A DNA stretch of 32,416 bases, taken from the IMG/VR virus record IMGVR_UViG_3300020450_000059, positions 1-32,416 of that record, one strand, 5' to 3'. The notes beneath the pieces are model-generated. The model did not search any database. It was not told the origin of the DNA and saw only the letters and a list, made by a program, of their open reading frames with translations. The position numbers and the translations under genes were made by a program. How positions within the stretch are numbered: the stretch's first letter is position 1; each line of letters starts with the position of its first letter. Source of the DNA: a virus. Positions 1 through 21,635 of this stretch are shown here, in pieces.

Positions 1-32
1 AGTTAGTACAAACGATATGAAAAATAAAAGTC

Positions 33-982: not shown

Positions 983-987
983 ACCGC

Positions 988-1836: not shown

Positions 1837-1981
1837 TTTCTGTTTCCTTTGTTTGACACTTGTCACAAATGCAGTGTTTACACACTTCTACAGAGTATTC
1901 CCTACCATCGTAATCTTTGTCCTGACGATAGAAAGGTGTTCCACAATGTGAACTGTGACCGCAATTTTTGCAATAGTACAT
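1829..1981 (-). CDS. Small zinc-ribbon protein (50 aa)
   Basis: This short gene fills the gap between the endolysin and the 238-aa gene. The 50-aa translation contains CKNCGHSSHCG near the N-terminus and CKHCICDKC near residues 34-42, giving paired CxxC knuckles of a zinc ribbon. Its stop overlaps the endolysin ATG by 8 bases (ATGGCTAA), typical of real coupled phage genes. No strong ribosome site precedes the ATG; the upstream sequence CTAAATATCTAT resembles a degenerate late motif but lies too close to be convincing. The function is unknown; small zinc ribbons may bind nucleic acid or protein. The Cys pattern and overlap make chance unlikely. Confidence 0.7.
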   Translation of the reverse strand: MYYCKNCGHSSHCGTPFYRQDKDYDGREYSVEVCKHCICDKCQTKETENG

Positions 1982-1989
1982 ATAGATAT

Positions 1990-2706: not shown

Positions 2707-3236
2707 TATACTGCTTCCTCTGGTGCTGGAGCCGCTGTTGCCGCTTCATCTGCTGGTTGCATTTCTTGCCCTGCTTGAGCACCTGCATCTACTGCTGGCT
2801 CTGTATTAAAGTTTTGCATTTCTTGTTGTCCACTATACATGTCAACAATTAATTTTTTTGGCATTTGGACTTTAACAACCCAAATAGGTTTACGGTCCAA
2901 TTTGCCCTTTTTTGTTCCCGGACGAATATCATCTGGTTTGCGTATTTTTCTTGGTACTGTAATAGAGTCTTTTTTGTAAAATACTTTACAGTCATAGTCA
3001 AGGAGTCTTTTGCCTCCCATAGGATCAGGCATTCTATCCCGTGGCCACATAAATGCACAAGTTACCCAGTGTCTTTCTATTTCAGGCCCTGCTAGTAATT
3101 CACCATCTTCCCAATTATCATAAACGTATATGTCTAATTCGTCTAATACACGTTCAAAATCCTTAAGAACTGCAAAGGCAGTATTACTTTCGTATATGCC
3201 TTCAACGTTTTTAACTAAGTCGTATACATCTTCCAT
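2706..3236 (-). CDS. Phage protein of unknown function with Ala/Pro/Glu-rich tail (176 aa)
   Basis: Residues 1-135 form a folded-looking alpha/beta region with several conserved-looking aromatics (WVTCAFMWPRDRMP) and a lysine-rich patch (KKDSITVPRKIRKP). Residues about 140-176 are low complexity, rich in Ala, Gln, Pro and Glu, and likely disordered. It is the first gene of a two-gene unit (TAATG overlap with the 238-aa gene) and follows a T4-late-like motif 26 bases before the start. I do not recognise the family. Late expression suggests a structural or assembly protein, without direct sequence proof. Confidence 0.75.
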   Translation of the reverse strand: MEDVYDLVKNVEGIYESNTAFAVLKDFERVLDELDIYVYDNWEDGELLAGPEIERHWVTCAFMWPRDRMPDPMGGKRLLDYDCKVFYKKDSITVPRKIRKPDDIRPGTKKGKLDRKPIWVVKVQMPKKLIVDMYSGQQEMQNFNTEPAVDAGAQAGQEMQPADEAATAAPAPEEAV

Positions 3237-3262
3237 TTACAAGTCTTCCATTCTTACTATGT

Positions 3263-3270
3263 TATTTATC
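3263..3270 (-). promoter_or_regulatory. T4-type late promoter (GATAAATA)
   Basis: On the minus strand this reads CGATAAATAACA, one mismatch from the T4 late consensus TATAAATA, 26 bases upstream of the 176-aa gene start. The same octamer class recurs before five other minus-strand genes in the window. Confidence 0.6.
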
Positions 3271-3326
3271 GTATTAAAATAGTTAAGTTATCTTATTGAT
3301 CACGCATTTTTAAGGTAAATACTTTT

Positions 3327-3357
3327 GTAGGGCAGTGCGTTCTACCGCAGACCCTAC
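3327..3357 (+). promoter_or_regulatory. Hairpin in the phoH 5' leader
   Basis: GTAGGG (3327-3332) pairs with CCCTAC (3352-3357), and inside it TGCG (3336-3339) pairs with CGCA (3346-3349) around a 6-base loop. No U-run follows, so a terminator is unlikely. It sits about 12 bases upstream of the phoH ribosome site and would be near the 5' end of the transcript if the weak promoter is used; it could tune stability or translation. Function is inferred. Confidence 0.45.
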
Positions 3358-3380
3358 TCCATATCCAATAGGAGGACTTA

Positions 3381-4103
3381 ATGGGAGCAAAAAGAAAAGC
3401 CGCAAGGCAAAAAACTTTCACCCACAGTAACGTGGTTGAACTTAATTCTTTTACAAAGAAAAAACAATCCGTAACAATACTACCCCGCAATAGAAACCAA
3501 GAACAATACGTGCTTAAACTGTTAGAGCCATCGAAAGACATAGTCTTTGGCATCGGCCCGGCAGGAACAGGTAAAACTCTGTTGGCAGTACAGGTAGCGG
3601 TTAAGTTATTCAAAGAAGGTAGAGTTGACAAGATAATTGTTACCAGACCAGCAGTGTCTGTTGATGAAGATCTTGGTCATTTACCAGGTACGCTAGAACA
3701 AAAAATGGCGCCATGGACTAGACCTATTTTTGATGTGTTACGTGAATATTTTAATGCTCGCGAAATAGAAGGCATGATAGAAGAAGGTATTATTGAAATA
3801 GCACCTTTGGCTTATATGCGTGGCAGAACCTTTAAACATAGTTTTATACTTGCAGATGAAATGCAAAACGCAACACCAAACCAGATGAAGATGTTATTAA
3901 CACGTTTAGGACAAGGCTCAATGATGGCAGTAACAGGCGATCTACATCAGGCTGATCGTATACGTGATAACGGATTAATTAATTTTACACAATTACTACG
4001 AAACAGCGATACGTCACACCTGGACATAGTCCAATTTGCAAAGGGAGATATAGAAAGACATGACGCAGTCAAAGAAGTTCTCGAGGTATATGGGGACGGA
4101 TAA
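3381..4103 (+). CDS. phoH: PhoH-like P-loop ATPase
   Basis: The 240-aa protein is a PhoH-family ATPase. Walker A is GPAGTGKT at residues 59-66; Walker B with the catalytic acid is FILADEMQNA (155-164); the downstream TGDLHQAD (185-192) is also typical of the family. It lacks the extra PIN domain found in PhoH2-type proteins. PhoH is one of the commonest genes of marine phages; its biochemical role in infection is unsettled (ATP-binding, proposed links to RNA or phosphate stress). The N-terminal 30 residues are basic. It is the only large gene on the plus strand, has its own AGGAGG site, and ends at a terminator shared with the opposing thyX, so it is a monocistronic unit. Confidence 0.93.
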   Translation: MGAKRKAARQKTFTHSNVVELNSFTKKKQSVTILPRNRNQEQYVLKLLEPSKDIVFGIGPAGTGKTLLAVQVAVKLFKEGRVDKIIVTRPAVSVDEDLGHLPGTLEQKMAPWTRPIFDVLREYFNAREIEGMIEEGIIEIAPLAYMRGRTFKHSFILADEMQNATPNQMKMLLTRLGQGSMMAVTGDLHQADRIRDNGLINFTQLLRNSDTSHLDIVQFAKGDIERHDAVKEVLEVYGDG

Positions 4104-4114
4104 AGATTAAAACG

Positions 4115-4135
4115 AAGGGGGCTCTAAGCCCCTTT
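4115..4135. terminator. Bidirectional terminator between phoH and thyX
   Basis: AAGGGGGCT (4115-4123) and AGCCCCTTT (4127-4135) form a 9-bp stem (one G-U pair) with a 3-base loop. The loop is the thyX stop codon (TAG on the minus strand), so the terminator is built into the end of thyX. On the minus strand it is followed by CTTCGTTTT. It closes both convergent units. Confidence 0.8.
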
Positions 4136-4810
4136 CAAACTTTCAACTAACGGAAACACTTCAGAAATAACTTTAGCACAGGCGTGTGCAACTTCCATAT
4201 GTTCTTTCTGTGTGCCATTTGCACTACGTAATTCAATGTAGTGTACCCAACTACGTATTGTACCGTTCATATATAATCTAGTTTTGGTAAGGCCTTCTGG
4301 TAATACTTTACGTGCTACCTCTTTAGCAATACCATTGTTAATTGCCCAATCATATGCTTTACCGGCAGTATAGATTACATCTTGTTGTTTTTCTTCCCAA
4401 CCAACAATAAGTTCAGCCATGCCTGGTTCAGACATATCAATTTCGATAGAGTTTTGTCTATTTTTATTGTCTTGCAAACGTGCTTCGCTTGTAATAAAGT
4501 ATTCTCCCATTTCGCCTGGTTCTGCATATCTTTGACTAAATTCTTGGAATGCAAAACTTCTATGTCTAACAATCTGATGTGCAATGTCACGAGTAGTTTC
4601 AATTTCAATTACTGCGTTTACCATTTCTAAAGGAGACCAATGTGCATGTTTTATTAAGTACTTGATTAAACGTTCACTTGTTTCTGTGTTAATTTGAGCG
4701 GCAGGGTTTGATACCTTTGCACAAAACGCAATTAGTTCTTGTAAATCTGTTAAACCTTCTGATTCAAACTCTGGTGTTGCTTTGCTATAACTTACTAGTC
4801 TAGCGGCCAT
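4124..4810 (-). CDS. thyX: Flavin-dependent thymidylate synthase ThyX
   Basis: The 228-aa protein carries the ThyX signature RHRx7S at residues 82-92 (RHRSFAFQEFS) followed by QRYAE, which bind dUMP and FAD. The enzyme converts dUMP to dTMP using methylene-tetrahydrofolate as carbon donor and reduced FAD, with NADPH as usual reductant. The length matches the family, and both the N-terminal substrate region and the C-terminal GTxRSWxHYxxLR motif (NGTIRSWVHYIELR) are present, so it should be active. It is last in the operon that starts at the 7012-7040 promoter, overlaps the 60-aa gene by 16 bases, and its stop lies inside the terminator hairpin. Role: dTMP supply for phage DNA synthesis. Confidence 0.95.
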   Translation of the reverse strand: MAARLVSYSKATPEFESEGLTDLQELIAFCAKVSNPAAQINTETSERLIKYLIKHAHWSPLEMVNAVIEIETTRDIAHQIVRHRSFAFQEFSQRYAEPGEMGEYFITSEARLQDNKNRQNSIEIDMSEPGMAELIVGWEEKQQDVIYTAGKAYDWAINNGIAKEVARKVLPEGLTKTRLYMNGTIRSWVHYIELRSANGTQKEHMEVAHACAKVISEVFPLVESLKGA

Positions 4811-4977
4811 GGTGCTTCTCCTTTTAATTCCTGTATACGTCTACGTAAAAAGCCTATTGTTGTATGTATATGTCCTGTATCGTGTGGTTGCAATAATGTT
4901 TTATAGTATTCAACTTCTTCTTCAAGAACACTTATACGTACAATATCATTTAGTAATTTTTTATTCTTAGTCGCCAT
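4795..4977 (-). CDS. Small helical protein of unknown function (60 aa)
   Basis: The 60-aa product is mostly helical with two coiled stretches (about residues 14-28 and 43-53) around a central [11 protein letters not shown] segment containing three histidines. I chose ATG 4977, which overlaps the ferredoxin stop and has GGAG upstream; a longer start at 5007 would lie further inside fdxA. It overlaps thyX by 16 bases, so it is translated between FdxA and ThyX. The family is not one I can name, but the compact conserved-looking core suggests a real gene rather than filler. It could be an adaptor for either neighbour; that is speculation. Confidence 0.7.
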
Positions 4978-7189: not shown

Positions 7190-7365
7190 ATTTTTGCTCT
7201 AAACCTTTCGTATGCTTTCCATAATTCCCACACTACAAATAAAATTGTAGCAGTTGTGAATCCTCCTCCTGCTAATGTAAGAAGCACTAGTACTTGCATT
7301 ACCTTAGCAAATATTGCTATGACTACAAGGTCATACCATTCAAAGACATCTGCGAAATTATACAT
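7186..7365 (-). CDS. Small membrane protein, holin-like size (59 aa)
   Basis: Read from the gap after the amidinotransferase. The 59-aa product has an acidic/aromatic N-terminus (NFADVFEWYDL), a long hydrophobic region (about 12-33), a GGG turn, a second hydrophobic run (about 37-47), and a basic C-terminus (KAYERFRAKI). Two membrane helices with a positive tail resembles class II holins, but it lies far from the endolysin. The ATG overlaps the amidinotransferase stop (ATGTATAA), with AAGGAGAAAG upstream, and its own stop overlaps the next gene as ATGA; this double coupling supports a real gene. Confidence 0.65.
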   Translation of the reverse strand: MYNFADVFEWYDLVVIAIFAKVMQVLVLLTLAGGGFTTATILFVVWELWKAYERFRAKI

Positions 7366-8389
7366 AATTTTGTCTTTCTCCTTGTCTGCTTAAATCTAAA
7401 GTAACACAATGTAATCCACTGTCCCAGAAATATTTATGTCTGAAGTTAAACGGTATCATTTCAACACCATATTTCTTTAACTCATTTTCGATTCTTTTGT
7501 CATGACCATTTGTAATTATTGTATTTTCATCAATACTTACTACATTCAAATCAAACACTGTTTCATCTACGTAGCCAATCCAATGAGATAACCATTTTTC
7601 TACTTTATCTTTATAAAAATGTTGTGTTCTTATTTCATGAAACCAATCAGGTAAATCCCACGGTGTAAGTATAATCTTATCCCAATGTTTTAATTCTTCT
7701 GGTATGTATTCTTCATTCCATGTCATTAACAATCCAGGTTTGATAAGTGCTAACATACCATCAACATGTCCACAACCAGGTACTTCTATCCATTTAGTTT
7801 CACAGCCTATATTTCTTTTTACCCAATTTAAACCTGTCTTTGTTCCTAGCATAGAGTCAAGTCCTGCAGGATCATGATACGTTTTTGAATGAATTAAAGT
7901 ATCACCACATTTTATAATATTTGCGGCATGATACATTATCTGAGGTTCCATTATTTCGTAATTTTGATACTTATTTTGTAACAATGGTTTAGGCATTGCA
8001 ATATAGTTTCTTCCCTCTTTATGTTTTTCTAACATAATATCTAGGAAGTAATCACTTTCAGTATATCTATTACAGTCACCACCTATAGTATTAATAATAG
8101 TATCTCCATAAACTATATGATGATCACGAGGACATATAGCAGGATATGGAAATTTTGATTTCCATTGTCTTGTGCTTTCAGATTGCAAAGGTATATTTTT
8201 TGGTCTGTAAACTTTGACACCTGATGATTCAAATGTATTTGATAATTTTTTAAAATCTTGTTCTGTTTCTTCTAGTATCTTTGACATACTATCAACAAAC
8301 TGTGCGTCATCGAATTGTTCTAAGGATTTTGTGTCATAAGTAGAACCGACAATAATCTCTGTAAGTTTATCCCATTCTGTCCATATCAT
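7358..8389 (-). CDS. Amidinotransferase (AGAT/StrB-like)
   Basis: The 343-aa protein resembles the amidinotransferases that move the amidino group of arginine to an amine such as glycine. By eye, the histidine motif GHVDG (His208) matches human AGAT His303, and SGLHCVTLDL with RxGExQxY near the C-terminus (Cys328) matches the nucleophile Cys407 region. The segment aligned to AGAT FDAAD reads YHAAN here, so the third catalytic position may be Asn157 rather than Asp; some related families also have Asn. FPYPAICPRDH (80-90) is the usual N-terminal signature. Substrates are unknown: a guanidino compound, polyamine or arginine catabolism role is plausible. It sits between a GNAT-like unknown and a small membrane gene. 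Confidence 0.75.
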   Translation of the reverse strand: MIWTEWDKLTEIIVGSTYDTKSLEQFDDAQFVDSMSKILEETEQDFKKLSNTFESSGVKVYRPKNIPLQSESTRQWKSKFPYPAICPRDHHIVYGDTIINTIGGDCNRYTESDYFLDIMLEKHKEGRNYIAMPKPLLQNKYQNYEIMEPQIMYHAANIIKCGDTLIHSKTYHDPAGLDSMLGTKTGLNWVKRNIGCETKWIEVPGCGHVDGMLALIKPGLLMTWNEEYIPEELKHWDKIILTPWDLPDWFHEIRTQHFYKDKVEKWLSHWIGYVDETVFDLNVVSIDENTIITNGHDKRIENELKKYGVEMIPFNFRHKYFWDSGLHCVTLDLSRQGERQNYV

Positions 8390-8392
8390 ATA

Positions 8393-8836
8393 TTATTGTG
8401 ATCCTAATATTTCAAAACCGTTAATTTGCTTTTTGTATTCATCTGGAGTGCCAACGTATATGTACTTAACACCTTTGGCTTTGTAATATGCACATTCGTG
8501 GCGTAGACTTTTTAAACCTAAGAATAATTTAGGATTCTTGTAGTTCCAAGCAAATTGTATTGCTTCTACATTATGTTTATTAAAGTTATGGTAAAAACTA
8601 AATGCAATTAGTTTTTTGTTATTGTAATATCCAATTATATCACTGCGTGGCGCACATAAGTCTTCATTAAACAAAGGCATTACACTTTCAAATTGTTTGT
8701 ACTTACAATATTGATCGTATATTTCTTGCAATTCTTCTACTGGCGGATTTTCAAGTAATACTGCGGATTTAGACATCCTATAGTTTGTTTTAGTTAAATC
8801 AATCCTAGAATATATATCACTCACTTTGTTCTCCAT
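8393..8836 (-). CDS. Unknown protein, possible GNAT-like fold (147 aa)
   Basis: The 147-aa protein has no sure family signature. The C-terminal half has an alternating strand/helix pattern (KKLIAFSFYHNF, then AIQFAWNY, then LGLKSLRHECAYYKAKGVKYIYVG) that recalls GNAT acyltransferases and leucyl/arginyl-transferase-type folds: a strand pair, a long helix, then a GVKYIYVG strand. The GNAT idea is based on pattern only; the acetyl-CoA loop (Q/RxxGxG/A) is not evident. It overlaps the 162-aa gene by 16 bases and ends 3 bases before the amidinotransferase start, so the three are in one operon. It could act on the same substrate as the amidinotransferase. Confidence 0.6.
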   Translation of the reverse strand: MENKVSDIYSRIDLTKTNYRMSKSAVLLENPPVEELQEIYDQYCKYKQFESVMPLFNEDLCAPRSDIIGYYNNKKLIAFSFYHNFNKHNVEAIQFAWNYKNPKLFLGLKSLRHECAYYKAKGVKYIYVGTPDEYKKQINGFEILGSQ

Positions 8837-9309
8837 CTTACAACATCATCATAGTTTTCTTTTGGCCAATTATCATAATACCCTTGTTTCTTTAAAATTT
8901 CACTTGCGTTGTTTAACTTTGATAGCCTTTGGACTAGTACTAATATACATTTACCAAAATTCATGGTTTCCCCATTTAATATTTCTGGGTCGTTTGGATG
9001 GTCTTCTAATGCTACTATATCTTTAGTCATAGCAATATCATTGAAGTCTTTTACAATTTTTGAAAGTTCTTTAGGAGTTAAATCTTCTGTAGGACAATAG
9101 ACAACAACAACTTCATATTTGTCATCCCAGTTATCAGCAAGGGAATTTATTATAGGTAATATAGTATGCTTTTCTACTGAGAGATAATTAATTCTCTCTT
9201 TAAGCATAGCCTGTTTTGCAAAAGGACACGGAACTTTTCCGATTTGTTCATTGTGCGTTGATACAAATTCTTTAATCCATTTTTGAATTTCTGAATCAAA
9301 GGTCCCCAT
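8821..9309 (-). CDS. Unknown protein with CPFAK motif (162 aa)
   Basis: I place the start at ATG 9309, which overlaps the MazG gene end by 14 bases; the alternative 39 bases upstream lies further into mazG. The product begins with a helix (EIQKWIKEFVSTHN) followed by VPCPFAKQAMLKERI, a striking conserved-looking motif with one Cys. The remainder has alternating strands (YEVVVVYCP) and helices, suggesting a compact alpha/beta domain. I do not recognise a named family with confidence. Situated between MazG and the GNAT-like gene; a nucleotide- or small-molecule-related role is possible by context only. Confidence 0.65.
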   Translation of the reverse strand: MGTFDSEIQKWIKEFVSTHNEQIGKVPCPFAKQAMLKERINYLSVEKHTILPIINSLADNWDDKYEVVVVYCPTEDLTPKELSKIVKDFNDIAMTKDIVALEDHPNDPEILNGETMNFGKCILVLVQRLSKLNNASEILKKQGYYDNWPKENYDDVVRWRTK

Positions 9310-9706
9310 CTTTACGATTCTCTGAATAGTAAACATTAAATTCGCCACCTGGGTAACGTGATTTAAGTTTGTTTACATTTTCTGCTACTACGTCATTTGG
9401 GTCAAGCCCAAGAGCACGACAACTATTAATCCAATACCACATAATATCGCCAAGTTCTCGTTTAGCATGAAATATAGTTTCATCGTTAAGTGGTTTGCCT
9501 TGGAATATGCATTTTTTAACAATCTCATTGAATTCTCCAGTTTCCGATGACAGGCCTATTCCGCCTGTAAGTAGTAGTGCCATGTTTACACCACTTTCAT
9601 TTTCTAGTGCCTCTAGTTGGTTACTAAGTGCCTTTGTTTCGTTACTTTGTGCAGATGTTACAGTCGCTACAAAGTTTTCATATTTCTTTAGATCTATGTT
9701 TTCCAA
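9296..9706 (-). CDS. mazG: MazG-like NTP pyrophosphohydrolase
   Basis: The 136-aa protein has the all-alpha MazG signature: ETGEFNEIVKK (metal-binding acids) and KRELGDIMWYW (ExxD-type helix), followed by NVNKLKSRYPGGEF. It should hydrolyse (d)NTPs to (d)NMPs; in marine phages MazG has been linked to nucleotide pools and, controversially, to (p)ppGpp. The start appears to be TTG at 9706 with a weak purine-rich region upstream; no ATG lies close by. The gene begins 12 bases after the GroES-like gene and overlaps the CPFAK gene. The size is typical for a single-domain phage MazG. Confidence 0.85.
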   Translation of the reverse strand: MENIDLKKYENFVATVTSAQSNETKALSNQLEALENESGVNMALLLTGGIGLSSETGEFNEIVKKCIFQGKPLNDETIFHAKRELGDIMWYWINSCRALGLDPNDVVAENVNKLKSRYPGGEFNVYYSENRKDGDL

Positions 9707-9718
9707 TTTTGTTTCTTT

Positions 9719-10129
9719 CTAATTAGCGTTAACAAACCCACTTGGGTCAATTGCGTCAGGAGCATAGTCACCTATACTACTGTTACTCATTTGCACATCA
9801 TCAGGTTTTTCTTCTGAGTATGCTAATACACTTTCTGACTCAACCATTCTTAAAACAATCTCATCTTCGCCTTCATTTGTCATTGTAATACCTCGTGTCC
9901 AACGACCATGTTCTATTAGGATCCAATCACCTATTTTATAATCGTCTTTGTTCTTTGGTCCTTTACTATGAACTTTACCCCAGCGTGGATAAATGCCTCT
10001 AACATTTCCATCATCTGAGGTAAGAATGATTCCGCCTTTAGTAGTTTGTTCTCCAAAGTACATATCACTTACAAGAACTCTATTTCCTATTGCGGTTAAG
10101 TTTCCTTCAAATTTTGCTAACGTATCCAC
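9719..10129 (-). CDS. 31: GroES-like co-chaperonin (T4 gp31-like)
   Basis: The 136-aa protein has the co-chaperonin 10-kDa core in residues about 10-95: AIGNRVLVSDMYF at the start, a mobile-loop-like TTKGGIILTSDDG region, then WGKVHSKGPKN and IGDWILIEHGRW. T4 gp31 replaces host GroES to fold the capsid protein; this protein is probably the equivalent. The C-terminal 40 residues are acidic and probably disordered. Translation starts at a GTG (10129) with GAGGTGACTA upstream, overlapping the stop of the preceding gene by one base (TAGTG). The gp31 assignment is based on fold-level resemblance, since marine versions diverge strongly from T4. Confidence 0.78.
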   Translation of the reverse strand: MDTLAKFEGNLTAIGNRVLVSDMYFGEQTTKGGIILTSDDGNVRGIYPRWGKVHSKGPKNKDDYKIGDWILIEHGRWTRGITMTNEGEDEIVLRMVESESVLAYSEEKPDDVQMSNSSIGDYAPDAIDPSGFVNAN

Positions 10130-10518
10130 TAGTCACCTCTTTTTACAAAATTGCCGTCTGCGTCTTCTACCCAATCATCTTCAGCATCTGCTTTTTCAGC
10201 CGCTTTTGCTTTTTTAGCATTTTCTGTAGATTTCTTTTGGGCTTTAGTTTGAACAGGTTCTGCTACTTCTTCTACAGGCTGTTCTACTTGTGCTACTTCA
10301 TCTGGAGCCGCTTGCGGATGTTCTTCGTAATAATCACGAATTACATCATCACGCTTTTTAATAATTTTGCCACCAGGACCAAGTTCGTCGCCACGTGCAT
10401 TTACACGAGCATTACCAACTGCTGGAGTCAACTCATTACGCTGACGCAACGTATCCATGTCAATTTGCTTACCTTGAAAAGTTTGGTAAGTTTTCTTTTG
10501 TTGTTGTCTTACAGGCAT
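10129..10518 (-). CDS. Charged protein with disordered tail, unknown function (129 aa)
   Basis: The N-terminal half (1-70) is basic and contains the block GDELGPGGKIIKKRDDVIRDYY, which looks like a conserved functional segment. The rest is low complexity, rich in Glu, Ala, Val and Lys (about 72-115), ending in DWVEDADGNFVKRGD. The start is fixed by one of the best ribosome sites in the window (AAAGGAGG, then TATATT, then ATG), and a T4-late-like motif lies 24 bases upstream. It directly precedes the GroES-like gene (one-base overlap), so the two are likely made together late, consistent with a role in head assembly, though I recognise no family. Confidence 0.75.
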   Translation of the reverse strand: MPVRQQQKKTYQTFQGKQIDMDTLRQRNELTPAVGNARVNARGDELGPGGKIIKKRDDVIRDYYEEHPQAAPDEVAQVEQPVEEVAEPVQTKAQKKSTENAKKAKAAEKADAEDDWVEDADGNFVKRGD

Positions 10519-10542
10519 AATATACCTCCTTTATTATGTACG

Positions 10543-10550
10543 TATTTATC
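10543..10550 (-). promoter_or_regulatory. T4-type late promoter (GATAAATA)
   Basis: The minus-strand sequence TTAGATAAATACG overlaps the stop codon of the DnaE-like gene and lies 24 bases before the 129-aa gene. It would add late expression of that gene and the GroES-like gene to any early read-through from 11092-11120. Confidence 0.6.
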
Positions 10551-11085
10551 TAAGGAACTCACGCCAATCCAGGCCATATTGGATTGAGTTTATTCTATGT
10601 ACGCCTATTAAGTATAGCACATAACTTGCTACACTACTACCTCTACCTACACCCCACACAATGCTATTTTCACGCATAAAATCTACCATATATATCATAT
10701 AACGTAGTAAGTTTTCCATACCACGTTTTTTAAATTCTTGGAGTTCTTCAAATGCCCTTCTATATTCAGGACCTTGTGCTTTGTAACCATCAGTAATTAA
10801 TCTTCCTAATACATATTGTTCAACGTGTATAGTTTTATATTCTTCTGGCATAAACCATTCACCTTGACATACTCCGTCAAAAGTCTTTTGATCTACATCT
10901 AATGGAATATATTTTTGCAACGGATTCATACCTTGTTCTTCCATTGCTTTGTTAAATTTATCTATGTCGTCAGATTGATCACATAGTACCACATGACACT
11001 TATCACTATGACCAGTATAGATCATATCAATAAGATCCTTATTAGAGAATCGTGGAATACCTAGTTCATCTGTTTTCATAAGCAT
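10546..11085 (-). CDS. DnaE-like GRGS-motif protein without polymerase catalytic aspartates
   Basis: Residues about 105-179 of this 179-aa protein resemble the stretch of bacterial DNA polymerase III alpha (DnaE) just before the catalytic centre: a helix, FMRENSIVWGVGRGSSVASY (137-155 region with GVGRGSS) and then YGLDWREFL. In DnaE the catalytic Asp pair follows this point, but here the protein stops at once, so it lacks the DxD metal site. The N-terminal 100 residues are unlike DnaE. It may be a decayed or repurposed fragment. The -10 box ends about 7 bases from the ATG, so the message might be almost leaderless; an internal ATG at 11025 with AAGGA upstream is an alternative start. Confidence 0.7.
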   Translation of the reverse strand: MLMKTDELGIPRFSNKDLIDMIYTGHSDKCHVVLCDQSDDIDKFNKAMEEQGMNPLQKYIPLDVDQKTFDGVCQGEWFMPEEYKTIHVEQYVLGRLITDGYKAQGPEYRRAFEELQEFKKRGMENLLRYMIYMVDFMRENSIVWGVGRGSSVASYVLYLIGVHRINSIQYGLDWREFLR

Positions 11086-11091
11086 ACTTGT

Positions 11092-11120
11092 ATTTTAACT
11101 GATATTAATAAGATTGTCAA
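11092..11120 (-). promoter_or_regulatory. Sigma-70-type promoter upstream of the DnaE-like gene
   Basis: On the minus strand, TTGACA (11120-11115) is followed by 17 bases and TAAAAT (11097-11092): 11 of 12 consensus positions at ideal spacing. The elements overlap the end of the upstream small gene. Predicted initiation is near 11085, on or next to the first ATG of the DnaE-like gene. Confidence 0.7.
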
Positions 11121-11358
11121 GAGAATTATCGCTATCTTGACTATTAATTTTTGGTTTTGCTCTGCGACCTTCCATCTCTGCTTTATACATATCAAGAATA
11201 GCCGTAATTTGTTCTTTTACCTGCGGATTGTGTGTCATCCAGAATTTTTTATTTAATTCTATTATTTTTTCTTCTATTTCAATGTCTGACAGATCATCAA
11301 AACTATTAACTAATGGATTAAAGGACTTTAGAGAAGATGCCACTAATGAATTCTCCAT
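11095..11358 (-). CDS. Small helical protein of unknown function (87 aa)
   Basis: I choose ATG 11358; another ATG at 11376 and longer forms are possible, since no ribosome site decides clearly. The product starts MENSLVASSLKSF and is largely helical, with IEEKIIELNKKFWMTHNPQVKEQ (about 30-52) and a KAEMEGRRAKPK segment, ending in an Asn/Asp/Ser-rich tail. It overlaps the 203-aa structural gene by about 40 bases. I recognise no named family; the compact helical core and tight overlap support a real gene. Its 3' end holds the sigma-70-like promoter, so it is the last gene of the structural block. Confidence 0.65.
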   Translation of the reverse strand: MENSLVASSLKSFNPLVNSFDDLSDIEIEEKIIELNKKFWMTHNPQVKEQITAILDMYKAEMEGRRAKPKINSQDSDNSLDNLINIS

Positions 11359-11959: not shown

Positions 11960-14743
11960 TTATGCATTATAATTATACTTTCCGAATAGAATATATTGAT
12001 CATTTGAGTTACCTACAACACTATCAATAATATATCTATCAATTTCAATATCTAATTTTTTGAAATCATATGCTCTGTTTCTAAGGTTAATCATAATTTC
12101 GTTACTTGTTCCTGGCTTGCAATAGCATAATGGCATTGCTAACACAAATCCTGTTTCTTGCTCTCCAGCAGTTTGTGGAGTACGCATCCATAAAGGTAAA
12201 AAGTCATATTCTGTTCTACCTAATGCTTTTATACTATCTTGCATGTTTGTTATATTGCTTATATATTTTTTACCTTGGCCACCACTTGCTAAAACTGCAT
12301 CACTATCTGCTTTAACAACAGGATCATTATTGAACACAAATGGATCTGTATCTGTATTTGCTGTGGCTGTAAGAGTTTCGCCTGTCGCAATAGTTTGTAC
12401 AGTATCGCCAAGATCTAATTGTGTATCATCAGTCATAAATTTATACTGTTCTGTATTTCTATTTACATTTGAATTATCAAGTAAAGTAGGTGTGCCATTT
12501 GGATGATTAGCATAAGCCGCCATATCTGCTTTTAGTTGTTCAGGTCCACGTTGTACAAATGTCTTTTTTGTTTCTCCTTTTTTTGCTTTTGAAGGATCAA
12601 TTAATTCAACATATATTACTTCATATATTACATCTTGTGTACCTGGTGTTTTTGCAACTGCACTTTTAAGTGCTCCAACATTGAATCTACGTTTTCTGTG
12701 CCATTTTTTACTAGCCGTAGCAAATTCAGTTATTGTTTTTGTTTCAATTCCTGCATACGCTAAAATTTTTATATCACGTTGTATGCCAAAATTTGGATCA
12801 TTTGGTCTATATATACTTGTTGGTGGAAAGTTTGCAGGATTACTTATAAATTCTTGGTATTCTAATCTTTTAGATTCTTTTAAAAATGGTTTCATATAAA
12901 GATTACTATACTGTCTATCATCGTCATCAATTACTTCGATTACAAATTGTTTTGTTGTTGCACTAAATCCAAATCTATCTTCTGCTTGTACAGTGAAAGT
13001 ATAGTTTCTATCTATACTTGTAGTATCATTATCAAATGTCATATTATCATTATCGAAAAAAGTTAATCCGTTTCTTTCACTATCAGAAAACTGTATAACC
13101 GAACCTGTAATTTCACCATTATATTGTAGTGTTAAACCTGGAGGTAATTTTCCACTTTTCAATGTGTATAATAATGGAGCATCTGGAACTGTAGTAGTAC
13201 CTTGAACTTTAAAAACACTTATTTGATTTGCTGGTATAGTTCCTAATTTAGTTTTACTAATCCATGCAATGCTACTATCTACGTCACCTAGTAATTTTAC
13301 GGTAAATGTTTTATCTTTAAATGTTGCAACTTCAACTACATTTTGTTCACTTATCAAAAGTTCTGCTCTAACTGTAAATTTATATTCTGTAGTAATTGCT
13401 GGCTGGTATGCTACACGACCTGCTATTTCACCTGTGTCTGGATCTATTGTCATTCCTGCTGGAATAACACTAGCAGTGCCATCGTCGTTTGTTGCCTGCA
13501 ACACATATCTTATTGCACCTCTTTGATTTTCATTTTTTAAAACTTCTAAAAACAATGTCACATAGTTATTTGCTCTTCTAAAACCAAAGTCACTAGGAGT
13601 TATCCAAATAGGAGTTCTAACATATGTATTGTCTGCTGTAAATACACCTGTAGCAACTTGTACAACAATATTATCTGCTCTTAAAAAATCTTCGCCTACT
13701 ACAAAGATAGTAAAGTTTCTTTTGACTATTGCTAATCCATCACTTACACTTACTTTAAAGTCATAATGTCTGTTTAGTTTTTTAGGAGGATTATATACAT
13801 AATTAGGTATTACTTGTCCTTGAAAATACAAACTACTTTTGTTTGAAAAATCATGCAAATACATATCATAATTTGCTGTATCGTATTGACCTTGTTTTGA
13901 TTTTTTATCTAAAGCAAGCAATGGTTCAACTACGCCTGATAGTTTACCTGTGTTACTTAAAGATATACCAGGAGGTAATTCTCCGTCGCCTTTTTCTATC
14001 CAAAACTCTAAACTTTTGTCTGCAGGAAGATCTACGTCTTCTGCTACTAATTGGAAATCGATTATTTCATTATCTAAAATGAAATATCTATTATTATTTG
14101 GCGGATTTCCTACTGGTAGTCTACCTTGCTCTGTTTTCCATAAAGGATCATCTGGACCGTCTATTATTATTTGAAAAGTCCTGTCATGAATATCAGTGCC
14201 AATAGTTGATCTTAGCACAAATTTAAATGTAGTTTGTCTTTCAACTTGTTTAGGAGTACCAATAATGTTGTTTTGAAAAATTCTTAATCCTGGAGGTAAA
14301 GTACCTGCAATTATTTCAATAGTTGGACTGTTTGATGGTGTGTTGGCCTGTCCACCCATTCCTGTATGATACTGACAATAGTAATAGAGTGTAGGTGCTG
14401 ATATAGGAACTACAATAGTTGTTTTGAAATTAACCATATCAACTGTAACTCCTGTTGTATATTCTGTCCCGCCTGAGTGTGTGCCTCCTGATGTAGTTGA
14501 AAATCTTAGAGGGTGAGTTGACGAAGCAGACCAATCAAAAATATAAGTATTACCTTCTATCAATTCCAAAGTAGGTTGTTGTACGCCATCAATAAAATAT
14601 TTGTTGCCATTGACAACATATTGAAAAGTTACTGAATAATTTATTGTAGAAGATGTAGTCGTTATAGGTAAACCTATAGAAATAGTTTCTTCTTCATTAG
14701 TTGTAACTAATGTAGTTCCAGATGGCTTTGTCCAATGTGACAT
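11960..14743 (-). CDS. Large modular virion protein with cupredoxin-like and He_PIG-like domains (927 aa)
   Basis: Residues about 36-135 resemble a blue-copper (cupredoxin) domain: TYIFDWSASSTHPLRF supplies His77, and YYYCQYHTGMGG supplies Cys123, His126 and Met129. The C-x2-H-x2-M spacing is that of amicyanin. At least four Ig-like He_PIG modules follow, each marked by an LPPGL or IPAGM turn and an N/D-x-G-x-I-x-G strand (near residues 149, 250, 430 and 530). The C-terminal third (about 600-927) is a different, unassigned beta-rich and helical region. It is likely a tail-tip or fibre adhesin exposed on the virion. Its ATG overlaps the preceding gene stop (TAATG). Cupredoxin identification is by motif; copper binding is unproven. 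Confidence 0.8.
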   Translation of the reverse strand: MSHWTKPSGTTLVTTNEEETISIGLPITTTSSTINYSVTFQYVVNGNKYFIDGVQQPTLELIEGNTYIFDWSASSTHPLRFSTTSGGTHSGGTEYTTGVTVDMVNFKTTIVVPISAPTLYYYCQYHTGMGGQANTPSNSPTIEIIAGTLPPGLRIFQNNIIGTPKQVERQTTFKFVLRSTIGTDIHDRTFQIIIDGPDDPLWKTEQGRLPVGNPPNNNRYFILDNEIIDFQLVAEDVDLPADKSLEFWIEKGDGELPPGISLSNTGKLSGVVEPLLALDKKSKQGQYDTANYDMYLHDFSNKSSLYFQGQVIPNYVYNPPKKLNRHYDFKVSVSDGLAIVKRNFTIFVVGEDFLRADNIVVQVATGVFTADNTYVRTPIWITPSDFGFRRANNYVTLFLEVLKNENQRGAIRYVLQATNDDGTASVIPAGMTIDPDTGEIAGRVAYQPAITTEYKFTVRAELLISEQNVVEVATFKDKTFTVKLLGDVDSSIAWISKTKLGTIPANQISVFKVQGTTTVPDAPLLYTLKSGKLPPGLTLQYNGEITGSVIQFSDSERNGLTFFDNDNMTFDNDTTSIDRNYTFTVQAEDRFGFSATTKQFVIEVIDDDDRQYSNLYMKPFLKESKRLEYQEFISNPANFPPTSIYRPNDPNFGIQRDIKILAYAGIETKTITEFATASKKWHRKRRFNVGALKSAVAKTPGTQDVIYEVIYVELIDPSKAKKGETKKTFVQRGPEQLKADMAAYANHPNGTPTLLDNSNVNRNTEQYKFMTDDTQLDLGDTVQTIATGETLTATANTDTDPFVFNNDPVVKADSDAVLASGGQGKKYISNITNMQDSIKALGRTEYDFLPLWMRTPQTAGEQETGFVLAMPLCYCKPGTSNEIMINLRNRAYDFKKLDIEIDRYIIDSVVGNSNDQYILFGKYNYNA

Positions 14744-15332: not shown

Positions 15333-18300
15333 CTAATCTGTAATATTATCTGCGGTAACATTTATTGTCACTGATGCACTATTGTTTAATATAGTAAATA
15401 CTCCGGTCAAACTTACACCATTAATATCAGCACTTGAAACTCCTGTAATTGTATATGGAACATTTGTACCATTTGCAACATTTGTTGTATCTAATGTAAT
15501 TGAAAAACTTTGTCCTTCATTAACACTAGTTGCACTTGAAGTTAATGAGTATGTTGGCGTTTCTGCTTCTGGCTCTGATGTTATACTTGTATCAAGTACC
15601 ATTTTGTATTCTACAAAATTACTCACAGATGTGCTTGTAGTCCCGTTAACTAAGCCTGATGCTGTTGCTGTACTGTCGTCAATTGTCATTCCTGTATCAT
15701 GCTGTGTTAGAGGGGAGTTTCCGTCTACAGTTACACTTCCGTGTACTTCGTATGACCAATCTTCTATATTCACAGTTGTTGTAGTTGTATCTGAATTATT
15801 AATTGGTACACTTGCAATTACACCTCCTACTCTACCTAAACTAGTTTGAGTAGAACTTACACCTTCGCCGCTTACCCAAAGTCTATTATTAGGATTAAGT
15901 GAGTTATCTAAACTACATTTATGTAATGATACATTCAAATTTGCACTTGCACTTGTATGCAAGTTTCTAAATTTTGTATTACTAAGACTAGTGCTGAATG
16001 ATAACACCATACCTCTTTTATTAGTATTTGTACTATCTTTATTTTGTTCTCCTACTGCAATTATTTTATTATTAACAGTATCAAAATCAATATCTCTTAG
16101 TTTAGGTTTAGTTGCTCTGTAATCTCCAGTGATATCTTGTTCACCTATATCATTTATCACCCAGTCAGTTGCAATAATTCCAGTAAGTGGATTAAGTTTA
16201 CAAATATGAGATTGCTCAAAATTTACTTGCGGACTATCAACATGACCAAAACCTATTATAGGATCGTCATTTTCATCTACAGTTATACCTGCAGGATTAA
16301 ATCCTGTTCCTGTTGCTGTAGGTACGTACCAAAATTTATTCCATACTATGCCTAACGAAGAATTAAATTTACGTGCAAATACAGTTTGTTCTGTACCATC
16401 GCTTTTTATTTCTGTACCAACAACATATATATTACCCGATGAATCTACAGTAACATCTTGTGCTTCTCCTTTTTTAGAAGTAGGATTTGCTTTCTTAACA
16501 CCCATTACATCACCATTTGTAATGTTTACTTTAATAAGCCACATACCGCTATCAAAATTTTGTAAGTAGTTTGCACCAACTGCAATTATGTTGCCGTCAT
16601 TTGCAAATGTCATAGCCTTTATTGCTAATGCATTTCCATCACTATCTGAATAGTTACGTTGCCATTGAGCAGTACCTGATGCATTTAATTTTGTTATATA
16701 TGCATCACTAGGATAATCAGCACTTGGTGTATTAGTTTCCCAATTCCATGAACCACTATATCCTACGTAAATATTTTCTGCACTATCTACTACTGCACCT
16801 GTTACAATATAATTTTGGGTAAATGTACGCCTCCAAATTGGAGATCCTCTGTCGGTATATTTTATTAATGCACAAGTTTTATTTGAACCGCTATCTAATT
16901 GTTCAATTGCAATCGAGGCTCCGCTTCCTGCGTGTGCAACAAATTGAAATGTTGTATTTGCAGAACGTGAAGTAGTAGGTCCATAATGTGTTGTTGTCCA
17001 ATGCTTGTCAGAAATATAAATTTCTCCATTCATATCATTGTGAATACTACATTGATAATATTTACGTCCACCAACTGTAGGTGTATAGGTTATAGTACCG
17101 TTTACAGTTCCTTGATTGACTACACCATTTGTTTGATTTGCTGTTCCGCTACCTTGTACATCTTTAATAAAGAACGGATGTCCTGATGCATTAATTGTCC
17201 AATTTATTGTGTCCCCTCTATCATACACAACTCCTGGATTTTGTCCACTAATTGATCCGTTTCTATCACTTCCTGAATTCCATACATACCCAGATGCTCC
17301 ACTATTGGTTACTGTACCTGTGAATGCTTCTTGTGTACCATCGCTTGTATCATTAATTGCGACCGTTTTTGATTGTGCATTATCTGTCATAAATGGCAGA
17401 TAGTGATTGTCGTCTTCTTGTGTTGTTGCTGTTAAACTTTCAATTAGTTTAAAATTAAATGTTTCTGCACCATCAAATGTATCGTCTGCTGTAACTGTAA
17501 AAGTTTTACTATTTGCAACTTGTGTAAGCGAACCTCTAATGTTTCCGTAAGTTGTAACTAATCCAGTCATATCAATATCAGTAGTAGCAACACCTGTTAC
17601 TTCAAATGGTATTGGAAGTTGCGGATCAGTAGTACTAAGATTGTTATTTGTAGTAATACTAAATGTACTGCCTTCGTTTGCACTAGTTTTATTTGATGCA
17701 AGTGTATATTGCGGTGCTTCAAATTTATCTCTGCTACCTGGATACATTATCCATATACCGCCGGACTGTCCAGTTTCTGCTCTAGTTTGACTTCCTGATG
17801 TAGCAAGTCCCATAACCATTACGCCACCTGCACCGCCACCTACTTCATGACTTGTTACTGCTGGCGATACTGTATCTACGTTATTTCCTTTTTGTCCTGC
17901 AACACCTGATGTAGTTCGAGTAGTTCCTGGAACTGAAATTGTAGGAACAGTTATGTTTGCATGATCACCTCTAAGTCCTGTAAGTTTTCTTGTTAGTGTT
18001 GTACCACCACCTCCTGCACCAAAAGTAATTCCTGTACCACTTGTCCAGTTATCAGTAAAACCGTGTCCACCTCCTGTACCGGCAGTTTGTTGAGGTCTTA
18101 GTTTTACATTGCCTTCTTCATATAATTTTATTTCTGCAAGTTTTGTTGTGTTTAAGTCTGTAGCATTTGTTGCCACGCCACCTCTAAATTCTATAATAGT
18201 TACTGTGTCAGTTGAACTAGTAAAACTGCCACTTAGTGCAAAACTAGATCCTCCATAATCTGCTGTACTTGCAAATGTTGTTGTAGTAGCAAATGCATAT

Positions 18301-21300
18301 ACTACATCATTCGCACCATCTAAAATTGCTGTTGCAGTTGAACCAAAATCTTTTGATGTACTTTGATAAACATACTTAGGAGCGTCTGTACCGTTACGCA
18401 CAAGTATATAGTAAGCATCATAATCTTGATTGCCATTTGAACTGTCTACCCATGTTGCACTTGTAGATAAAATATCTGCAAATTTCTTTTGTAAAAGATA
18501 TGTGTATTCGTTTGGATAACTTGCTGATCCTCCAGGTCTTACGTCAATTTTTACTCTGACTCCGCCTACATGGCTTATGGCTTTACATATTATATTACCA
18601 GTTGTGCTTGTGGTCCAATTGTAAGGTGATGTTTCTGCATTGCTGTAACCTAAAAGAGTATTGTATGGTTGTCCAGGTCCGCCTACAGCACCTGCACCAG
18701 CGCCGCCTCCGCCACCGCCAACAACTGCACCGTCTAAGTTATATCTATATGAGTCTCCACCTTGGCCTCCTGCTTTGCTTATAGTAAATGGTCCTGTTGT
18801 AGTACCACCTAAGCCACCCGCTTTGCGTTCATACACTGATAGACTATTCATTGCGACTGATGGACTTGTTTTTCCACCCCCGGCTATATAGTTTTGTCCA
18901 TTACATATAAAACTTGTGTCTCCACCATCGTTATTACCTGCACCACCTGCACCTATCGTATAGGTTAAAGTTTCACCAGGAGTAACACTTAGGTTATTAC
19001 TAATACCTAAAGCACCTGCTCCTCCTCCACCAGTCATTTGTCCTGCTCCTAGTGCGGATATTGTACCACAACCTGCTCCACCACCTACAGCCATAACACT
19101 TATACTTGTTACTCCTGCTGGTATTGTAAAACTACCAGAGCCTGGTGTTGTTATAATTTCATCTCCTGCTACTAATGTTGTACTTGTATCGTTAATTGTA
19201 ACTGATGCTGAGATGCCTGAAATTGTTGTTAAAGTTATTGTAAATGTTTCTGTACCTTCTGTAGTAAAATCTTCTGCTATTGTAAAACTTTGTGTAGTTT
19301 GTGTTCCTGTTACATAATTGCCACTTATAGATCCTGCAGATAAATCTGTTGCACTTATTCCTGTGACTGTGTAAGGTAAAGTTACACCTGGTATACCATT
19401 TTCAACAATCAAATCAACATCAAATGATTGTCCTTCATTTACTGAACCTGCTGTTGCAACTAAATTATAGGTAATAGGTGAGTTACTTGTGTCGTTAATT
19501 TGTACACCTAGTGTTTCACCTGCCGCAGAAAATGTTAATGTTTCTGTACCTTCTAATAATCCGTCAGCAGTTATTACGTATGTACGAGACATATCACTAC
19601 CAACAGTCAGTGTTCCTGATAACGGTTCATCACTAATATCTGCACTAGATACTCCAGTAATTGTATAAGGAATGGTTGTTCCTGATAAAACATTATTTGC
19701 TGTTAATGTAATAGTAGTTGACTCGCCTTCTCCTAAACTATCACGTGTACTTGCTAATGAATAGGTTGCACTTGGCTTACTAGTATCGTTAATTGTTACA
19801 CTTACATTTTTTCCTGCAACTTCATTTAGTGAAAGAGTGAATGTTTCGTTTCCATCGTCAAAGAAATTATCTGCTGTAGTTGTAAAAGTTAAAATTTGGT
19901 TTGTGCCTATAATAAAGTTGCCGGTTAAAGATGCATCTGAAATGTCAGATGATTCAACACCAGTAATTGTGTACGGAATAATTGTGCCATTCACAAGTCC
20001 TGTTGTTGTCAACGTAATTGTAAAACTTTGTCCTTCGTCTACACTTGAAGCACTTGCTGTCAGAGCATAAGTTGCTTCTACTGCACCTTCTTCTGCTACA
20101 ATAGTTTCATCACCTGCAATAGTCAAAACATCTGGATCGTTATAAGTTTGATGTGCGTATCTGTTAGTTCCGCCCATTAAACTTCTATAATTAGTATAGT
20201 CCGATCCGGTGTTACCATTTTCATTTAATTGTTCTTTGGCATTTGTTGTTATCCATGATTTATGTTGTGCCGGTGTTGCATTAGGTTGTATTTCTGCATA
20301 AGTTGTAACAAGTCCTGCTATTTGAGGTGATGCCATAGATGTTCCACCTATGTTCGCAATTCTAAATGCTGTTGTTCCATATTGTGCATCTGTAAATCTA
20401 TTTGTTGTACTTGTTGAACTAAAAATATTTGTACCTGGTGCGTATACATCAACTCCAGGACCTTTTTCACTGCTTTGTGCTATTTGTTCTTTACCACCAG
20501 AATCTAATGCACTATCGATATTTCCAACCATGATAGCGTTTGTTGAATAAGGAGATGAGCCTCTATGGTAGTATTTTGTTTGTCCGAAACTATTTGTGTA
20601 ATAGTTATTGTAATCTGGATCACTTGCTGTAGCAATTTTATGATAGTTGTTACCTGCGGCAATACATACTACAACTCCTGCTTCTATTAATTCATCGACG
20701 TCAGCATCTACTGATGCTACTCTTATAGGATGTCTATAACCTGATCCATCAAATGCACCTGTCATTCCGTAGGCTGTAAGTTTAGAATTACCTGTCCAAG
20801 GTGTGCCTCTATAGTTACCGCCAGTAATACTGAAATATCTACTAAAGTAACCCCAACTCATGTTTATTACTGTAGGACGTTTTACTCCAGTCAACACATC
20901 CGGAGTCTTTGCTTTGTGCCATTCTTTAACGACATCAAATATATCACTAATAGACATACCGTTGTTTGGATCTTGCGATCCTTGTAGTCCTGCAATTTTT
21001 ATTGAATAAATTTTTGAGTTCTTTGCCCAACCGTATGTTTTACCTGCCGCAATACCTGCAACGTGTGTACCGTGCCCGTCGTAGTCTGTATAGAACCCTG
21101 CTGGTAATGTTCCACTTACTACTGACTGTGCTTGATACCAATCAATTTCTTGTACTCTACTATTACCAAATGAATCTTGAAACTCTGGATGGTCTGCTTG
21201 TATTCCTGAATCTTGTACAATAAAGTCAACACCTGTACCTGTAAGTGTGTGATCATATCCGCCAACAACTGCACCGCTTGAATTATAAGGATTTGCTAAC

Positions 21301-21635
21301 GCACTCATTCTACGCAATCCCCAATTTATATTATCTCCTGAAGTTGCTGTAGATTTATCAAAATTTCCTGTTTGTGTTGCAAATCTTTCAATTCCAATAT
21401 CATCACGCAAGTCTGGTCTTAGTTCAACTGCTTCTACACGTTCATCATATTGTAATACATCTGCTTCTACATCAGTAAGCATGTAATGGGTGTTTCTTAT
21501 ACTTGCAGGTCTTTCGTTTGCAACTGTAACTGCCTTTGGTGGAACATAAGGTAGCATGTTATCAGCAATCATATCTTGTCTAAATGCTGTTGGATCTACA
21601 CCTTGTTTTAGTGTTACAATGTATTCTTTTTCCAT
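15333..21635 (-). CDS. Giant virion protein with subtilisin-like protease and multi-domain shaft (2100 aa)
   Basis: The N-terminus (about 3-75) resembles an inhibitor-I9 propeptide, then a S8 subtilase domain (about 100-470) has a complete triad: Asp142 in VQDSG, His188 in DGHGTHVAG, Ser433 in GGTSMASP, with oxyanion Asn329 in AAGNN. Three Calx-beta-like modules follow (521-617, 621-715, 720-815), then a glycine-rich region (825-990) interrupted by an inserted beta domain (about 990-1180), more glycine-rich sequence, another Calx-beta-like module (1308-1430), a cupredoxin-like domain (His1485, Cys1528, His1531, Met1534), a propeller-like repeat region (about 1540-1930) and a last, truncated Calx-beta module. 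It likely belongs to the tail, where it could cleave host surface proteins or process virion parts. No signal peptide is seen. Confidence 0.88.
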   Translation of the reverse strand: MEKEYIVTLKQGVDPTAFRQDMIADNMLPYVPPKAVTVANERPASIRNTHYMLTDVEADVLQYDERVEAVELRPDLRDDIGIERFATQTGNFDKSTATSGDNINWGLRRMSALANPYNSSGAVVGGYDHTLTGTGVDFIVQDSGIQADHPEFQDSFGNSRVQEIDWYQAQSVVSGTLPAGFYTDYDGHGTHVAGIAAGKTYGWAKNSKIYSIKIAGLQGSQDPNNGMSISDIFDVVKEWHKAKTPDVLTGVKRPTVINMSWGYFSRYFSITGGNYRGTPWTGNSKLTAYGMTGAFDGSGYRHPIRVASVDADVDELIEAGVVVCIAAGNNYHKIATASDPDYNNYYTNSFGQTKYYHRGSSPYSTNAIMVGNIDSALDSGGKEQIAQSSEKGPGVDVYAPGTNIFSSTSTTNRFTDAQYGTTAFRIANIGGTSMASPQIAGLVTTYAEIQPNATPAQHKSWITTNAKEQLNENGNTGSDYTNYRSLMGGTNRYAHQTYNDPDVLTIAGDETIVAEEGAVEATYALTASASSVDEGQSFTITLTTTGLVNGTIIPYTITGVESSDISDASLTGNFIIGTNQILTFTTTADNFFDDGNETFTLSLNEVAGKNVSVTINDTSKPSATYSLASTRDSLGEGESTTITLTANNVLSGTTIPYTITGVSSADISDEPLSGTLTVGSDMSRTYVITADGLLEGTETLTFSAAGETLGVQINDTSNSPITYNLVATAGSVNEGQSFDVDLIVENGIPGVTLPYTVTGISATDLSAGSISGNYVTGTQTTQSFTIAEDFTTEGTETFTITLTTISGISASVTINDTSTTLVAGDEIITTPGSGSFTIPAGVTSISVMAVGGGAGCGTISALGAGQMTGGGGAGALGISNNLSVTPGETLTYTIGAGGAGNNDGGDTSFICNGQNYIAGGGKTSPSVAMNSLSVYERKAGGLGGTTTGPFTISKAGGQGGDSYRYNLDGAVVGGGGGGAGAGAVGGPGQPYNTLLGYSNAETSPYNWTTSTTGNIICKAISHVGGVRVKIDVRPGGSASYPNEYTYLLQKKFADILSTSATWVDSSNGNQDYDAYYILVRNGTDAPKYVYQSTSKDFGSTATAILDGANDVVYAFATTTTFASTADYGGSSFALSGSFTSSTDTVTIIEFRGGVATNATDLNTTKLAEIKLYEEGNVKLRPQQTAGTGGGHGFTDNWTSGTGITFGAGGGGTTLTRKLTGLRGDHANITVPTISVPGTTRTTSGVAGQKGNNVDTVSPAVTSHEVGGGAGGVMVMGLATSGSQTRAETGQSGGIWIMYPGSRDKFEAPQYTLASNKTSANEGSTFSITTNNNLSTTDPQLPIPFEVTGVATTDIDMTGLVTTYGNIRGSLTQVANSKTFTVTADDTFDGAETFNFKLIESLTATTQEDDNHYLPFMTDNAQSKTVAINDTSDGTQEAFTGTVTNSGASGYVWNSGSDRNGSISGQNPGVVYDRGDTINWTINASGHPFFIKDVQGSGTANQTNGVVNQGTVNGTITYTPTVGGRKYYQCSIHNDMNGEIYISDKHWTTTHYGPTTSRSANTTFQFVAHAGSGASIAIEQLDSGSNKTCALIKYTDRGSPIWRRTFTQNYIVTGAVVDSAENIYVGYSGSWNWETNTPSADYPSDAYITKLNASGTAQWQRNYSDSDGNALAIKAMTFANDGNIIAVGANYLQNFDSGMWLIKVNITNGDVMGVKKANPTSKKGEAQDVTVDSSGNIYVVGTEIKSDGTEQTVFARKFNSSLGIVWNKFWYVPTATGTGFNPAGITVDENDDPIIGFGHVDSPQVNFEQSHICKLNPLTGIIATDWVINDIGEQDITGDYRATKPKLRDIDFDTVNNKIIAVGEQNKDSTNTNKRGMVLSFSTSLSNTKFRNLHTSASANLNVSLHKCSLDNSLNPNNRLWVSGEGVSSTQTSLGRVGGVIASVPINNSDTTTTTVNIEDWSYEVHGSVTVDGNSPLTQHDTGMTIDDSTATASGLVNGTTSTSVSNFVEYKMVLDTSITSEPEAETPTYSLTSSATSVNEGQSFSITLDTTNVANGTNVPYTITGVSSADINGVSLTGVFTILNNSASVTINVTADNITD
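19191..20075 (-). repeat. Tandem Calx-beta-like modules in the 2100-aa protein
   Basis: Three consecutive modules of about 96 residues occupy 19785-20075, 19491-19775 and 19191-19478. Each has the pattern ATYxLxA, then EGQSF or EGEST, then IPYTITGVxxxDIS, TADxxxEGxETFT and SVTINDTS. Further copies lie at 17346-17714 and, truncated, at 15336-15557. Confidence 0.8.

Follow-up and report, generated by a model that had tools for sequence, protein, structure and literature searches.

Can a copper-type domain be carried on the tail of a phage, and by which route would it have arrived there? This question is raised by two neighbouring genes in the virus record IMGVR_UViG_3300020450_000059, analysed here over its whole stretch (the window), which is the entire IMG/VR record of 32,416 bases. 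A sequence-only reading of this DNA had proposed that a 927-aa protein and a nearby protease protein of 2100 aa each include a cupredoxin-like module, referred to here as module A and module B, respectively. The two modules lie 2.35 kb apart, in neighbouring genes of the tail region (Table 1). The explanation favoured here, with a probability of about 0.7, is that module A has the cupredoxin fold, retains an intact amicyanin-type type-1 ligand set and was recently inserted by horizontal transfer into a presumed tail protein, in which it would constitute a copper-stabilised surface domain.

Table 1. Positions of the two modules, their carrier genes and the predicted copper ligands in the window
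Feature	Position	Strand	Evidence
927-aa carrier protein of module A	11960..14743	-	ORF; three He_PIG Ig-like stretches; presumed virion/tail protein
Insertion at the DNA level	14330..14665	-	In four relatives, blastn matches end at 14327-14329 and restart at 14664-14667; net gain 321 bp
Module A, inserted cupredoxin-fold domain (predicted), residues 30-136	14336..14656	-	AlphaFold2; VIA; absence in carrier relatives
Cys123-x2-His126-x2-Met129, loop of predicted copper ligands with the length seen in amicyanin	14357..14377	-	Invariant in A1; C in 215, H in 216 and M in 213 of 219 modules
His77 codon, predicted first copper ligand	14513..14515	-	Invariant in A1; H in 218 of 219 modules
2100-aa carrier protein of module B, with an S8 peptidase at the N-terminus and a glycine-rich region	15333..21635	-	Pfam Peptidase_S8 (E 2.9e-31) and Gly_rich_2
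Module B, cupredoxin-fold domain (predicted), residues 1434-1543; ligands His1486, Cys1529, His1532, Met1535	17007..17336	-	AlphaFold2; VIA; A3 profile (E 7e-45)

Genomic setting and carrier protein

The gene set of the window is that of a T4-like phage. It includes clamp loader, PhoH, MazG, thymidylate synthase, endolysin and spanin genes, as well as those for a head-morphogenesis protein and for gp9/gp10-like and tail-fibre-like proteins. Gp9/gp10-like and tail-fibre-like genes are the neighbours of the 927-aa gene, and its product is presumed from this neighbourhood to be a tail or virion protein. Pfam recognizes He_PIG (PF05345) in three stretches of the protein, over the curated cut-off (E 1.9e-9), a match that describes the scaffold of the protein and not module A. 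The family of this carrier displays lineage-specific insertions at other places too, which points to a scaffold accepting domains.

Some minor features of the same DNA and of its relatives can be mentioned. A minus-strand ORF of 362 aa at positions 31127-32215 matches the phage endonuclease family phrog_8420 (E 3.9e-79) and resembles a UV-damage endonuclease, and another of 343 aa, also on the minus strand (7358-8389), matches phrog_25854, a family of unknown function, and looks amidinotransferase-like by eye. Two relatives of the 927-aa protein (L235, positions 10-3408, and L238, positions 1414-4821) carry, close to the C-terminus, about 310 extra residues that include a His-rich HVFHTVHAFGIPG stretch.

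Predicted fold and ligands of the modules

In the 927-aa protein, His77, Cys123, His126 and Met129 are all found at the positions given by the sequence-only reading. The place that it had assigned to the module was also right, but the extent was not quite so, module A being a little wider (residues 30-136). Both the ligand set and the loop length match an amicyanin-type (type-1) copper site. Alignment of module A with 39 relatives (40 sequences, A1) shows His43, Cys89, His92 and Met95, in module numbering, to be invariant, and the four ligands of module B are likewise invariant when this module is aligned with 43 relatives (44 sequences, A3). A further residue, His89 of the 927-aa protein (14477-14479 of the window), belongs to a TH-x-GG motif; it is invariant in all 40 aligned relatives of module A and missing from B-type modules.

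The AlphaFold2 models of both modules are confident. That of module A (pLDDT 95.8, pTM 0.87) was matched best by VIA to the cupredoxin domain at the N-terminus of a Hyphomicrobium nitrite reductase, 2dv6 (Z 7.6, rmsd 2.6, 86 aligned), and nearly all VIA rows with Z of at least 5 are type-1 or multicopper cupredoxins, such as rusticyanin, multicopper oxidases, plastocyanin and pseudoazurin. Foldseek reached an E-value of 0.01 at best, with Ig domains mixed among the cupredoxins. By itself, such a match of a predicted structure is middling, and the cupredoxin fold of module A is supported because the module is homologous to module B. Indeed, the AlphaFold2 model of module B (pLDDT 97.5, pTM 0.89) aligns by VIA to the same nitrite reductase domain with Z 11.3 (rmsd 2.1, 93 aligned), and Foldseek lists 53 PDB matches with E of 1e-3 or lower (best E 3e-5), with rusticyanin, nitrite reductase, CuA and plastocyanin at the top. 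The predicted structures of both modules thus match cupredoxins, as expected if the proposal of two cupredoxin-like modules was correct.

Searches against PDB sequences depend on the breadth of the query. With the single sequence of module A, the best match is an unrelated KIAA0319-like protein (E 0.52), and the A1 profile retrieves mostly antibody chains. Copper proteins are reached by the A2 and A3 profiles, which are more diverse than A1 and consist of module-B relatives, but not by A1. The A2 profile matches pseudoazurin (E 0.002) with the His and the Cys-x2-His in register, and A3 matches copper nitrite reductase (E 0.005), amicyanin (E 0.0065) and plastocyanin (E 0.02). The top A3 match by E-value, v31Bagel8, is a repeat protein in which no individual stretch is significant and was discarded. 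Pfam and NCBIfam searches with the whole 927-aa and 2100-aa proteins yielded no copper family; PF00127 (Copper-bind) matches neither the 927-aa protein nor modules A and B, and neither module reaches the cut-off of any Pfam copper family. Only one relative, in the baseplate wedge protein of L114, passes the Copper-bind cut-off with 21.9 versus 21.2 bits.

Conservation of the ligand set

The four ligands are kept together in 212 of 219 aligned modules; for the individual residues, the counts are 218 (first His), 215 (Cys), 216 (second His) and 213 (Met). Three of the seven exceptions (L182, L210 and L297) carry Gln in place of Met and retain the Cys and both His residues. Replacement of Met by Gln is a known axial substitution of type-1 copper sites, found for instance in stellacyanin. 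The seeds used for some scans held ligand residues, and an unbiased subset is provided by the S8 loci, which were chosen by protease peptides alone; in these, Cys-x2-His-x2-Met is present in 25 of 25 modules (23 ORFs). Together with the invariance of the ligands in A1 and A3, these counts place the motif match beyond chance, in agreement with the sequence-only reading. The ligands are still fixed in A3, where sequences diverge to about 37% identity.

Such a pattern has to be weighed against a module that would be a purely structural spacer, i.e., an Ig-like beta-sandwich that is cupredoxin-like and metal-free and in which the motif is kept for packing. Ig-like domains are known decorations of phages, the carrier is itself built of them, and Foldseek ranks Ig domains beside cupredoxins for the module A model. 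A packing role does not readily explain, however, why the Cys, both His and the Met stay fixed while the remaining sequence varies to such a degree in A3. The Cys is moreover unpaired, no disulfide being possible inside the module, and the Met to Gln exchange is the one known from type-1 axial positions. A metal-free spacer is consequently considered improbable, and copper occupancy of the module is likely in view of the ligand conservation.

Carriers and hosts of the module

The expectation that tail-fused cupredoxins would be found among marine phage proteins was borne out by searching them, as the module is common under tail, baseplate and structural annotations in marine and freshwater phages. 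Among the named phages that carry it are phages of Synechococcus, Prochlorococcus, Pelagibacter, Methylophilales and an actinomycete, and the annotations of the carrier genes read gp9 connector, baseplate wedge, tail fibre, subtilisin-like protease or structural protein. The cultured phage S-ShM2 (L318) has one module in gp9 and one in the adjoining baseplate wedge subunit (gp10), which is the two-neighbour layout seen in the window. The family is also carried by the cultured phages S-TIM5, P-SSM2, HTVC028P and Melnitz. PHROG 677 (gp9 connector) includes the domain, unlabelled, at the C-terminus, and the family is not named as cupredoxin in Pfam, NCBIfam or PHROGs. The open-access papers searched contained no description of phage-tail domains of the cupredoxin or blue-copper type. 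The module can be placed among the laterally spread virion beta-sandwich domains, with a conserved copper-type site as its particular feature.

The position of the module within its carriers is variable, with insertion into an Ig-like loop, N-terminal, C-terminal and tandem arrangements, and the carriers have no redox partner domain in common. This distribution bears on the possibility that the module, instead of acting in adhesion, is redox-active, either transferring electrons with partners of the host surface or periplasm or detoxifying reactive oxygen. Amicyanin, plastocyanin, pseudoazurin and rusticyanin are electron carriers and are also the top structural matches, which speaks for such a role. 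It is nevertheless given a low probability, since placement differs among carriers that have no common redox partner domain and the hosts span cyanobacteria, SAR11, Methylophilales and an actinomycete, so that no single photosynthetic partner fits. Because the carriers are mixed and no partner domain is common to them, surface display is favoured over a dedicated electron-transfer chain. A link of the module to photosynthesis was considered and rejected, since SAR11, Methylophilales and an actinomycete are among the annotated hosts.

Module A as an insertion

A search for carriers, with the 927-aa protein minus module A as the query, retrieved 41 contigs. Only one of them carries module A, namely L213 (IMGVR_UViG_3300020392_000335), which agrees with the window at 99.99% identity across a 7,964-bp stretch that contains the module and is essentially the same virus; this second copy argues against an assembly artefact. 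In three of the other 40 contigs (L234, L240 and L248), the ORF leaves the insertion site uncovered. None of the 37 informative relatives, which cover the region and include divergent proteins of about 40% identity, has module A at this site. The alignment of the carrier proteins shows a single clean gap between GLPI and SPTIEIIAG, located in a loop of the first Ig-like domain. In L225, for example, 15 bases stand against 336 in the window, i.e., a net gain of 321 bp or 107 codons. The closest relatives of module A (L003-L017, 71-77% identity) belong to other viral contigs and have carriers unlike the 927-aa protein outside the module. GC3 is 0.206 in the insert and averages 0.135 (sd 0.033) over the remainder of the gene, a mild deviation of about 2 sd that is not relied on, and dS for module A is saturated. 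Judging from these alignments, module A is a recent insertion into a loop of the first He_PIG Ig-like domain.

Relationship between modules A and B

The alignment of the two modules proposed by the sequence-only reading identifies them as homologues. BLASTP gives a weak but positive match (28% over 79 residues, E 1e-4), and hhalign with the two profiles gives a probability of 99.1% (E 3.8e-19). The A3 profile, composed of module-B relatives without any module-A sequence, matches the 927-aa protein at E 4.4e-9 in a search of all window frames, and no third cupredoxin-type module was found in these frames. In the module tree, A and B stand far apart, in separate parts, and a duplication of module B into module A was rejected on this placement and on the level of identity. 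The idea of a reused module is therefore retained in the sense that A and B are homologous, but not as a duplication within this genome. Module A, as far as sequence comparison tells, is of the same broad family as module B and was acquired separately.

An ancestral module A mostly lost from the carrier family, or a module A copied from module B within the genome, would agree with the occurrence of both modules 2.35 kb apart in one genome, but either is very unlikely considering that 37 of 37 informative relatives are without module A and show the same junction, even at about 40% identity, and that A and B, which share about 28% identity over 79 residues, are placed apart in the tree.

Module B is carried by every complete S8 protein of at least 56% identity, and its dN/dS against close relatives (0.11-0.23) indicates purifying selection. 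S8 proteins of about 520 aa are without it. In L275 and L276 (ORF 7986-11216), a single S8 protein combines an A-type and a B-type module.

Proposed origin and role

According to the favoured explanation, a module circulating among aquatic phages would have been transferred horizontally and would have entered the presumed tail protein within a loop of its first Ig-like (He_PIG) domain. Once folded, the domain would project from the tail or baseplate surface and could take up copper after assembly, on release into oxidising surroundings. It would then form a rigid copper-stabilised surface (adhesion) domain aiding contact with the host surface. Exposure of the module on the virion is probable, and the adhesion role is put forward tentatively. 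Should the modules bind copper, the particles of aquatic phages would represent a pool of protein-bound copper, and the metal site of the tail would allow host adsorption to be probed by experiment. The comparison with empty sites captures a putative metal-binding domain as inserted into a tail-region protein and illustrates how such proteins may gain new surface chemistry.

Comparison with known systems

The phage modules have in common with amicyanin, pseudoazurin, plastocyanin and rusticyanin the predicted fold, the His...Cys-x2-His-x2-Met pattern and the amicyanin loop length. Unlike these single-domain blue copper proteins, they are domains inside tail-region or protease proteins, lie below the Pfam cut-offs and have a predicted copper site. 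The Ig-like decorations of phages (He_PIG, Big) are likewise small, laterally transferred beta-sandwich modules of virion proteins, and module A is inserted into one of them, whereas module A has a conserved cupredoxin-type set of metal ligands. The cyanophage plastocyanin PetE is a phage-encoded cupredoxin as well, but it is a stand-alone electron-transport gene product (PMC3037559); modules A and B are parts of much larger ORFs (927 and 2100 aa), and their family also occurs in phages of non-photosynthetic hosts.

The nearest published idea concerns the iron-binding HxH tail fibres of T4 (gp37) and of the alterophage R22Y, and the Ferrojan or Trojan Horse hypothesis (PMC11705849). These fibres and the modules both present a putative transition-metal site on a marine phage tail protein. 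They differ in that the fibres are trimeric and use HxH motifs, whereas the modules are monomeric beta-sandwiches with copper-type ligands, and no HxH motif occurs in the sequence of module A or module B. A copper counterpart of the iron hypothesis can be formulated for marine and freshwater phages, in which copper-loaded tail cupredoxins, as a mobile domain of unrelated virion proteins, would engage copper-uptake or electron-transfer receptors of the host via the bound copper or via the cupredoxin surface. This reading is considered improbable.

Outside phages, relatives of the module are found chiefly in marine Bacteroidota, often at the C-terminus and accompanied by DUF7282 or CHRD domains, one of them with a Por secretion tail. 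These surface proteins carry homologous C-terminal B-type modules with the same ligands and are cellular, not phage. Compared with viral models, the module A model matches many phage proteins, several of which are annotated as structural, tail-fibre or baseplate. Small "beta-sandwich proteins" from relatives of Pithovirus and Marseillevirus (BFVD A0A481Z6J5, A0A481Z7Q7 and A0A481YVH3) also match it, with E-values from 9e-6 to 1.5e-4, and the fold may thus occur in giant-virus proteins too.
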